From NCBI GenBank assembly GCA_020832405.1, contig JAFIET010000011.1, forward strand, positions 1-64,000: a stretch of DNA of 64,000 bases. Reading direction: 5' to 3'. The position numbers and the translations under genes are program-made. How positions within the stretch are numbered: position 1 is the stretch's first letter; every line of letters begins with the position of its first letter. Below, in pieces: positions 13,955 through 16,262 of this stretch. The notes beneath the pieces are model-generated. The model ran no database searches. It worked only from the letters and a program-made list of their open reading frames with translations, and was not told the DNA's origin. The stretch comes from Balneolales bacterium (GTDB taxonomy: Bacteria; Bacteroidota; Rhodothermia; Balneolales; Cyclonatronaceae).

Positions 13955-14278
13955 TCAAAAGAAACCCAGCACCCATATAAAAAGCATCACGGCTAACAAC
14001 GATACAAGATTTCCGATGAGGAAATAATCATCGGAAACCTTACCCTTTTCACTGTTTCTGAACCGGGTTCCGATTTTGAGCGCACCAAACGCAATAATAA
14101 CCTGCGGGTAACCGAGCAAAATACCGGTTATCAAAAACAAACGTTCGAGTACACCCTTAAAGATAGAGATACCGCGCTTCTCTCCCGGGTTCATGTTCTT
14201 ACTGATCAGGAAATGATACATAAGGTTGATGATCAGCTCCATGACCAACCATATCAGAAAACCGTAAACCCAGATCAT
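13955..14278 (-). CDS. Small membrane protein partnered with SatD-like protein
   Basis: A 107-residue protein with three hydrophobic segments (about 4-25, 45-68 and 88-107) separated by short charged loops, such as KNMNPGEKRG and FRNSEKGKVSDD. I cannot name a family with confidence. It is the second gene of a two-gene operon: its ATG overlaps the SatD-like stop codon as ATGA (14275-14278). It therefore probably works with the SatD-like protein, perhaps as its membrane-side partner. Confidence 0.7.
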   Translation of the reverse strand: MIWVYGFLIWLVMELIINLMYHFLISKNMNPGEKRGISIFKGVLERLFLITGILLGYPQVIIAFGALKIGTRFRNSEKGKVSDDYFLIGNLVSLLAVMLFIWVLGFF

Positions 14279-14937
14279 AGCGCCGCCTCCATAAACTCAA
14301 GCCCGGCGAAAACGGCTTGCTTCAGCAGATTGTACTCGTTAATCATCAGCGTCTTGCGGCGGCGGTAAATTTGGGTGCGGTCTTTCCCATGCAGCTTCCC
14401 GACTTCCGCATCGCTCTCATTTTGAATCATATCAAAGATGAGTTCATAATCGTCAGGGTTCCAGCGTGAAATGATGCCGTCAAGTACAGCAAAATTCCTG
14501 TTCAGCTGTGCCGCGTGAGGGGCAGCTTCAGTTGGCAGGCTGATGGTGTACCGGCGGCGGTTCCGGCCTTTATCCGTAAGCAGCTCCCGCGCTCTGGTGA
14601 GCCCTTCCCCCATCATCCCCCAGGCTTTGTCCGGGTTAATGGCCGTCTCGATAAATCCCTGATGCAGCACATAATGAAGCCGAAACGGCACCGGCAGCAG
14701 CAGCCGGTTTTCTTCCATGTATAAAATTGTCCGTATCCCGGAATGCAGCGATTGTGTAACGCCCTGAAATTCATCTCCAAGGGTGATGGTGTAGGGCGAT
14801 GGGGTCTCCGGTTTAAACTGCTCGTTGGTTTTTTCAACCAGTTCCCGCAATGCTGTCTGAAGCTTTGCCGCATTAAGCTCCCGGCTCGCGGACACATCAC
14901 CCATCAAAATAAAGGCTGTTTCTTTTTTTGAAGTCAT
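14275..14937 (-). CDS. SatD-family protein: cyclase-like N-domain plus C-terminal HTH
   Basis: A 220-residue soluble protein of the SatD family, named after the acid-tolerance satD gene of Streptococcus mutans; its biochemistry is unknown. Residues 9-60 hold two acidic motifs, LMGDVSASRE (Asp14) and ITLGDEFQG (Asp55, Glu56). Their spacing recalls the two metal-binding aspartates of class III nucleotidyl cyclases and related palm domains. This is my inference, not a proven activity. The C-terminus (about 170-205, AEVGKLHGKDRTQIYRRR) looks like a helix-turn-helix. The gene is preceded by three phased operators, so it probably regulates itself. Translationally coupled to the small membrane protein gene. 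Confidence 0.75.
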   Translation of the reverse strand: MTSKKETAFILMGDVSASRELNAAKLQTALRELVEKTNEQFKPETPSPYTITLGDEFQGVTQSLHSGIRTILYMEENRLLLPVPFRLHYVLHQGFIETAINPDKAWGMMGEGLTRARELLTDKGRNRRRYTISLPTEAAPHAAQLNRNFAVLDGIISRWNPDDYELIFDMIQNESDAEVGKLHGKDRTQIYRRRKTLMINEYNLLKQAVFAGLEFMEAAL

Positions 14938-14952
14938 AGTGGATAATACAAC

Positions 14953-15029
14953 TGTTGCAAAAAAACTGCAAATAATTTATTGTTGCATAAAAAATGCAAC
15001 AATAGAATATTTGCAGTTATTTTGTAACA
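14953..15029 (-). promoter_or_regulatory. Three tandem operators upstream of the SatD-like operon
   Basis: Three copies of TTGCA, 7 nt, TGCAA lie at 14955-14971, 14983-14999 and 15011-15027, at an exact 28-bp period. The third right half reads TGTAA. The middle copy extends to two 11-nt arms (14978-14988 and 14994-15004) around AAAAA, and the whole array is symmetric about 14991. A weak minus-strand promoter (TTGTTG at 15002-14997, 17 nt, TAAATT at 14979-14974) sits inside, so binding would block it. The array ends 15 bp from the SatD-like start. Confidence 0.75.
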
Positions 15030-15216: not shown

Positions 15217-15675
15217 ATGGACAAGCAACAGCTCATTATAAGTCAGCTCGAAAAGCGTGTCTCTGCTTTTTCGGAGGCAGTGGCAATTCCCCACCCCCCT
15301 TCAGGATGGGTAAAAGCGGTACGTAATGCACTCGGTATGACCCTCGAGCAGCTGGGAAAAAAACTCTCGGTTTCTAAACAGGCAGCACTTGAAATCGAAA
15401 AAAGGGAAAAGGAAGGAAGAATTACAATCAACAGCCTCAGAGAAACAGCTCATGCCATGGATATGAAGCTGGTTTATGGTTTCGTACCAAAAGACGGCTC
15501 TTTTGAGAAGCTAATTGATAAAAAAGCAACTGCACTTGCCAAGGAAATTGTTCTCAGAACTTCACAATCAATGAAGCTGGAAGATCAGGAAAACAGCGAT
15601 GAACGAATTGCAAAAGCCATTGAAGAAAAAACCTTAAAGCTTAAGCAGCAACTGCCTAAGGCGCTATGGGATTAG
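15217..15675 (+). CDS. Mobile mystery protein A (HTH antitoxin)
   Basis: A 152-residue protein of the 'mobile mystery protein A' type. An XRE-like helix-turn-helix lies at about 30-85 (VRNALGMTLEQLGKKLSVSKQAALEIEKRE), followed by LRETAHAMDMKLVYGFVPKDGSFEKLID, which is characteristic of the family, and a charged helical C-terminus. It is expected to neutralise the Fic protein encoded next and to repress the operon. Its last codons overlap the mmyB start by 10 bp, so the two are translationally coupled. The pair is known from mobile and accessory regions. Confidence 0.88.
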   Translation: MDKQQLIISQLEKRVSAFSEAVAIPHPPSGWVKAVRNALGMTLEQLGKKLSVSKQAALEIEKREKEGRITINSLRETAHAMDMKLVYGFVPKDGSFEKLIDKKATALAKEIVLRTSQSMKLEDQENSDERIAKAIEEKTLKLKQQLPKALWD

Positions 15676-16262
15676 ATTTCGGATATATTTCGGGTCAAAC
15701 GCCAATTGACGAAGAGGAACAGCTTGATCTGCTGATCCCGGGAATTTCAATGCGCTCGGAACTTGATGAGTTTGAACAGCAAAATATTGAGGAAGCCTTA
15801 CTGTGGGTCATAGGCCGCAAACTGACAGCTGAAAAGATATTAAGCGAGAGTTTCATACGTCAGCTCCATAAACGCATGCTGGGAGAAGTTTGGAAATGGG
15901 CAGGAACATACCGGAAAAGCAATAAAAATATTGGTGTCGATAAATGGCAAATACCGGTTGCCTTAAAGCAACTATGCGATGATGCACTGTTTTGGCATAA
16001 ATCAGGCACTTTTGAGCCTGATGAAATGGCCATCCGTTTTAAACATCGCCTTGTTAGTATTCACTGCTTTCCGAACGGAAACGGCCGCCATTCCCGCCTG
16101 ATGGCAGATATTATTGCAGATAAACTCTATAATCTCCGTCCGTTTACATGGGGTAGTCAAAATCTCATTCATCTTTCCGAAGTGAGATCCGAGTACCTGA
16201 AGGCTCTGCGCCAGGCTGATGCCGGTGAGCTCACCCCATTGATTCGGTTTGCACGCTCCTGA
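15666..16262 (+). CDS. Mobile mystery protein B (Fic/DOC toxin)
   Basis: A 198-residue Fic-domain protein of the 'mobile mystery protein B' type. The Fic core reads HCFPNGNGRHSR (near residues 138-149). Compared with the common HPFxDGNGR, the acidic residue is Asn, so the usual metal ligand is missing; other proteins of this type often show the same change. Fic enzymes transfer AMP or other phosphate-containing groups to target proteins. The conserved helix LHKRMLGEVWKWAGTYRKSNKNIGV precedes the core. It forms a toxin-antitoxin module with the preceding HTH gene and is convergent, 10 bp apart, with the amylase gene. Confidence 0.88.
   Translation: MGLDFGYISGQTPIDEEEQLDLLIPGISMRSELDEFEQQNIEEALLWVIGRKLTAEKILSESFIRQLHKRMLGEVWKWAGTYRKSNKNIGVDKWQIPVALKQLCDDALFWHKSGTFEPDEMAIRFKHRLVSIHCFPNGNGRHSRLMADIIADKLYNLRPFTWGSQNLIHLSEVRSEYLKALRQADAGELTPLIRFARS

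Follow-up and report, generated by a model that had tools for sequence, protein, structure and literature searches.

We analyzed a two-gene operon and the region upstream of it in a 64,000-nucleotide stretch of a Balneolales genome (contig JAFIET010000011.1, positions 1 to 64,000), which we call the window. The features of the locus are collected in Table 1. The product of the first gene is a member of the SatD family, PF16264, by the curated cut-off (54.2 bits compared to a gathering cut-off of 29, E = 1.9e-14); the family takes its name from the sat acid-tolerance genes of Streptococcus mutans. The second gene encodes a small membrane protein, hereafter the partner, and the two genes share the ATGA that an earlier note on this DNA, made from the letters alone, had pointed out.

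Table 1. Features of the satD locus, with positions counted from the first letter of the window.
Feature	Positions	Strand	Description
Membrane partner	13955-14278	-	107 aa; four predicted helices; overlaps satD by ATGA
satD	14275-14937	-	220 aa; cyclase-type palm plus C-terminal HTH
HTH region, C-terminal	14281-14457	-	Residues 161-219; recognition helix 187-196
Arg192 (with Asp186 at 14380-14382)	14362-14364	-	K/R identity co-varies with TTTCA/TTGCA operator
Palm domain, class III nucleotidyl-cyclase-like	14539-14922	-	Residues 6-133; Foldseek and profile-profile comparison
Asp55, metal-site aspartate 2 (LGDEFQG)	14773-14775	-	198/198 homologues; aligns with cyclase metal Asp 2
Asp14, metal-site aspartate 1 (GDVSAS)	14896-14898	-	198/198 homologues; aligns with cyclase metal Asp 1
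Promoter-like site	14943-14972	-	TTTGCA-18-TATTAT; overlaps O1; -10 hexamer ends 5 nt before ATG; leaderless layout
O1, TTGCAAAAAAACTGCAA	14955-14971	.	TTGCA-N7-TGCAA, exact; overlaps promoter -35
O2, TTGCATAAAAAATGCAA	14983-14999	.	Exact; centre of array dyad (14991)
O3, TTGCAGTTATTTTGTAA	15011-15027	.	One mismatch, TGTAA end

The starts of the three operators are stepped by 28 and 28 bp, and the array as a whole is an inverted repeat, with 36-nt arms (14953 to 14988 and 14994 to 15029) that are 89% complementary and symmetric about position 14991. The earlier note had described three copies of TTGCA-N7-TGCAA at a 28-bp period around one centre, ending 15 bp before satD. The positions, the period, and the symmetry hold, and two of the copies are exact, but the third departs from the pattern at its end and the gap between the array and the satD ATG (14937) measures 17 nt. 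Counted one by one, sites with at most one mismatch show no excess over chance in the window (7 seen compared to 4.8 expected); the phased array, and not the isolated site, is the non-random feature. The 3.96-Mb genome contains seven exact copies of the pattern, two of which lie at the satD locus, and no other two are close together. We considered and rejected a regulon beyond the operon’s own promoter, given that the five other exact sites are all single and about four are expected by chance (base-frequency estimate). The distance of 5 nt between the -10 hexamer and the start codon is the commonest among relatives, and the layout of the promoter fits a leaderless transcript that would be shut off by SatD on O1.

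We measured the self-similarity of upstream regions in two sets of satD loci. The first set comprised 118 loci from related genomes, reduced to 74 non-redundant loci. Compared to dinucleotide shuffles, self-similarity peaked at lags of 28 (z = 13) and 29 (z = 22), with additional peaks at 56 (z = 8.6) and 58 (z = 8.3) and lower values at other lags. The best lag was 28 or 29 in 50 of the 74 regions and fell elsewhere in approximately one third, partly owing to degenerate arrays or misplaced starts. The second set, tested after the hypothesis was fixed, comprised 50 representatives from Bacteroidota genera, Pseudomonadota, Verrucomicrobiota, Thermodesulfobacteriota, Calditrichota, Armatimonadota, Acidobacteriota, Spirochaetota, and others. 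The collection was scanned with a narrower SatD alignment; the broad alignment had no conserved stretch. In this second set, from which loci common to both sets were removed by recognized taxon or match and not by a systematic set-to-set comparison, z reached 10, 15, and 9 at lags 28, 29, and 58, and the best lag was 28 or 29 in 38 of 50 regions. The same 50 loci gave no peak at 28 or 29 in the gene interior or at positions -500 to -350.

Palindrome centres in 129 upstream regions fell on two exact lattices, at 14/28/42/56 bp and 14.5/29/43.5/58 bp, with half-period values because symmetric sites recur at a fixed step. Chains of at least three sites were present in 55 of these 129 regions compared to 82 of 1,290 shuffles, and the arrays consist of two to four sites. 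The array is a family property of satD loci, and its operator words vary by lineage, including TTGCA-N7-TGCAA (the window), TTTCA..TGAAA, TATCGG..CCGATA, and TTCGATG..CATCGAA. On a haloarchaeal plasmid (locus L234, 3801 to 4663), TTCGCC..GGCGAA-type pairs approximately 29 bp apart stand before a SatD-DUF3307 pair; these were found by eye, as were similar arrays on Agrobacterium and Sphingomonas plasmids. Autorepressors with tandem operators likewise have repeated palindromes over the promoter; SatD differs from them in that its word varies by lineage but the 28/29-bp period remains exact. Operators whose words vary freely at a fixed period, as seen in bacteria and on a haloarchaeal plasmid, form an unusual signature, and the period could locate such loci independently of sequence similarity.

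Layouts with phased tandem sites over a promoter are also known from parC and tubC, and the satD arrays recall them. We nevertheless rejected the reading of the array as a partition-type centromere or replication iterons, and not an operator, as very improbable: the loci are mostly chromosomal (7 plasmids match), no ParM, TubZ, or Rep gene is in the conserved core, and each array has only two to four sites.

Within the clade that shares the window’s HTH type, we compared operator words with the residue that follows the Trp/Tyr of the recognition helix, which is Arg192 in the window. Lysine at this residue occurs with TTTCA and arginine with TTGCA (35 and 3 versus 2 and 23 in the two-by-two table; Fisher p = 7e-12). 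When the HTH is left out of the tree, approximately 13 independent pairs differ at the residue, and the operator agrees in approximately 10 of them and opposes in 0; well-supported branches alone provide 5 pairs, with 4.6 agreeing and 0 opposing, which is too few for significance by themselves. Proteins with Lys192 and Asp186 tend to have mixed sites (24 TTTCA-type versus 22 TTGCA-type words), compared to 127 TTTCA-type versus 7 TTGCA-type words where Lys192 is combined with a residue other than Asp at 186. The window’s SatD has Asp186 with Arg192 and pure TTGCA sites. Hybrid operators, with one TTTCA half and one TGCAA half, were observed at several loci whose HTH has Lys192 and Asp186 (L054/L128, L184, and L198).

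The co-variation between residue and word ties each SatD to its own array and makes an explanation by RNA or by chance less likely. In computational terms, an HTH together with self-specific operators over its own promoter marks SatD as a transcriptional autoregulator with an operator array, and the self-regulation proposed in the earlier note is supported by the phased arrays across the family, by the lattices, and by this co-variation. One terminator-like match does lie over O2, and the palindromes might be read as RNA hairpins forming an attenuator or terminator. However, the promoter-like site is downstream of O2, which would therefore be outside the transcript; exact 28/29-bp phasing is needless for RNA; and the operator word co-varies with an HTH residue. 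We rejected this reading too, as having almost no chance of being correct.

The AlphaFold2 model of SatD (pLDDT 97.1, pTM 0.93, 71 homologues) has a palm with the order beta-alpha-beta-beta-alpha-beta, followed by a linker helix and an HTH region with helices at residues 161-172, 176-183, 187-196, and 199-219. HTH profiles match relatives of the protein, and together with the model they back the C-terminal HTH that had been read from the sequence. The best PDB fold matches found by Foldseek were all class III cyclases (Cya2 with E = 1.5e-4, Ma1120, Rv1900c, and soluble guanylate cyclase), with moderate TM-scores of 0.4 to 0.58 (target-normalised TM of 0.55 to 0.58 for Ma1120). Profile-profile comparison of SatD with class III cyclases of related genomes gave E values of 2.4e-5 to 9e-5, compared to 0.4 to 0.7 for unrelated controls. 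Because a profile search of the PDB with SatD returned mostly HTH matches, with cyclases no better than E = 0.05 to 0.4, we base the fold claim on Foldseek and profile-profile comparison. SatD had no Pfam match to GGDEF, and no GGDEF domain was among the 50 best fold matches listed.

In the profile-profile alignment, Asp14 and Asp55 correspond to the two metal aspartates of the cyclases and residues 87-96 to the strand after them, in agreement with the cyclase-like spacing that had been noticed for the motifs GDVSAS and LGDEFQG. Both aspartates are present in every one of the 198 homologues checked, and conservation is nearly as complete at Ser18 (197 of 198 sequences), Gln58 and Gly54 (196 each), and Gly94 (194). 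Neither of two outcomes that the earlier note had named as refuting, a fold unlike those of palms and cyclases and homologues lacking the aspartates, was observed; its third, on DNA binding, was approached indirectly through the co-variation of residue and operator word. The transition-state Asn-x3-Arg pair of cyclases aligns with Thr114 and Glu118 of SatD, which vary among the 198 sequences. The base-selecting Lys/Asp or Glu/Cys residues have no counterpart before the GD, where SatD positions 51-53 vary or differ. SatD thus shares with class III cyclases (PF00211; Cya2, Ma1120, Rv1900c) the fold, the motif order, and the two metal aspartates, but it is without their Asn/Arg and base-selecting residues and is fused to its own predicted operator-binding HTH. 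Membership in the class III cyclase fold is thus supported, whereas membership among working cyclases is not. With the base-selecting and Asn/Arg residues absent, the palm could be a vestigial domain with a purely structural, dimer-forming role. Another divergent class III branch predicted in Bacteroidota is that of the DUF2652 cyclase-like proteins (PMC4886424); they are a different family from SatD, and that paper does not mention SatD or DUF3307.

The AlphaFold2 model of the partner (pLDDT 87.9) has four helices, one more than the earlier note had counted. The partner matches the C-terminal half of longer partners, in which the N-terminal half is either DUF3307 (PF11750; for example, locus L022, 2094 to 2798) or another membrane segment. 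PF11750 covers the N-terminal half only, and the module shared with the 107-aa protein of the window is the C-terminal half, which has no Pfam model and gave no PDB match in the fold search. Its invariant residues are Gly42, Glu45, Arg46, Lys68, Gly89, and Ser93, and no recognisable nucleotide-binding domain was found in the partner. A match of one long partner to MASE2 (E = 0.0018) was below the cut-off, and we did not rely on it.

In our neighbourhood survey, 182 of 186 loci had the partner module directly downstream of satD, and the start of a 4-nt overlap was present in 93, consistent with the earlier proposal that the membrane protein belongs to one unit with SatD. Partner genes also occur in genomes without a Pfam SatD match, including those of the window’s own congeners, and of 12 such genes retrieved, 10 adjoin a divergent SatD; the other two lie on short stretches. 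The profile built here finds these divergent SatDs, which PF16264 misses, so the Pfam model undercounts the family. Because a divergent SatD adjoins most of these seeming orphan partners, the pair looks obligate. Several of the divergent SatDs ahead of seeming orphans (L236 to L247) have 28/29-bp arrays.

We consider it likely that SatD is an autorepressor that binds metal and probably a nucleotide, assembles on the phased operators, and has control of its obligate membrane partner. SatD HTH dimers would bind two to four end-to-end palindromes, stepped by exactly 28 or 29 bp, over their own promoter, and bound SatD would switch the two-gene operon off, acting as a repressor rather than an activator. 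Since the metal aspartates and the following Ser are kept, the likeliest ligand of the palm is a nucleotide with Mg/Mn, and this signal would be passed to the DNA-bound oligomer. The period is fixed while words and HTH types change, which is most simply explained if protein-protein contacts between neighbouring dimers, probably through their palm domains, set the spacing and make the switch cooperative. At approximately 10.5 bp per turn, neighbours would be rotated by approximately 240 to 275 degrees, so that the complex would wind around the DNA. The simplest arrangement would have palm dimers form the bridge between one HTH dimer and the next, so that nucleotide binding and cooperative binding to DNA would be coupled. 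The regulated product would be the translationally coupled membrane protein, as an obligate effector or sensor. We think it quite unlikely that the nucleotide site forms solely at palm contacts between neighbouring SatD dimers, in which case the operator lattice would serve as a template of DNA, turning on or off a divergent class III palm enzyme or nucleotide sensor with the partner as its read-out; this would be a nucleotide-signalling system that is built on its own promoter and is common to bacteria and archaea.

SatD might instead be an active nucleotide-processing enzyme, a cyclase or one with other palm chemistry, whose signal acts on the partner and which also represses its own operon. 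The class III fold, the membrane partner at nearly all loci, and the complete or almost complete conservation of the metal aspartates, Ser18, Gln58, and Gly94 are in keeping with this, but the varying Thr114/Glu118, the lack of a base-selecting Lys or Glu before the GD, and a partner without a recognisable nucleotide-binding domain make an enzyme unlikely. Pycsar systems, which combine a pyrimidine cyclase with a membrane effector, likewise place a cyclase-type protein beside a small membrane protein; the SatD partner differs in having no recognised cyclic-nucleotide-binding domain, and PADLOC is silent on both proteins of the satD locus.

A toxin-antitoxin-like pair, in which overproduction of the membrane protein does harm and SatD either silences its transcription or antagonises it directly, is possible but rather unlikely. 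Near-obligate pairing, ATGA coupling, and a tight autoregulatory array would all suit such a pair. In addition, among the accessory genes of Streptococcus pyogenes, satD alone scores as essential in transposon screens (PMC11323703), which would follow if losing SatD set something harmful free; however, the streptococcal gene is distant and the case concerns satD itself, its neighbour gene aside, and we take it as a lead, not as evidence on the window’s locus. Further points against this reading are the mostly chromosomal location of the loci, the absence of any match in PADLOC or among phage records, and the fixed place of the cassette in seven genera, where it stands between gyrB/parE-like and parC-like genes, that is, between topoisomerase-like subunit genes (names assigned by eye; L153, L158, L161, L166, and three others).

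The earlier note had also raised a defence role, citing a toxin-antitoxin neighbour. The neighbour is there, a mobile mystery A (HTH antitoxin-like) and mobile mystery B (Fic) pair (TIGR02612/TIGR02613; window 15217-16262, plus strand), but it is separate from the SatD unit. With PADLOC silent, no phage match, no island evidence, and the fixed chromosomal place in seven genera, a defence link is not supported, and what stands of the proposed self-regulating cyclase-like unit is the palm fold, the aspartates, the array, and the partner. No third gene is widely common to the neighbourhoods.

We return to SatD as an autorepressor with a membrane partner. The pair is widespread, with satD in many bacteria and some archaea, and the papers we found describe no mechanism for SatD or DUF3307; as a signalling pair it becomes testable. 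The fold, the DNA target, the recognition-helix specificity code, and the near-obligate partner module absent from Pfam are new for the family, and they therefore make its function directly accessible to experiment. In the window’s genome and those of 40 relatives, GGDEF domains hardly occur (1 of 41 genomes), and class III cyclases are common (31 of 41).
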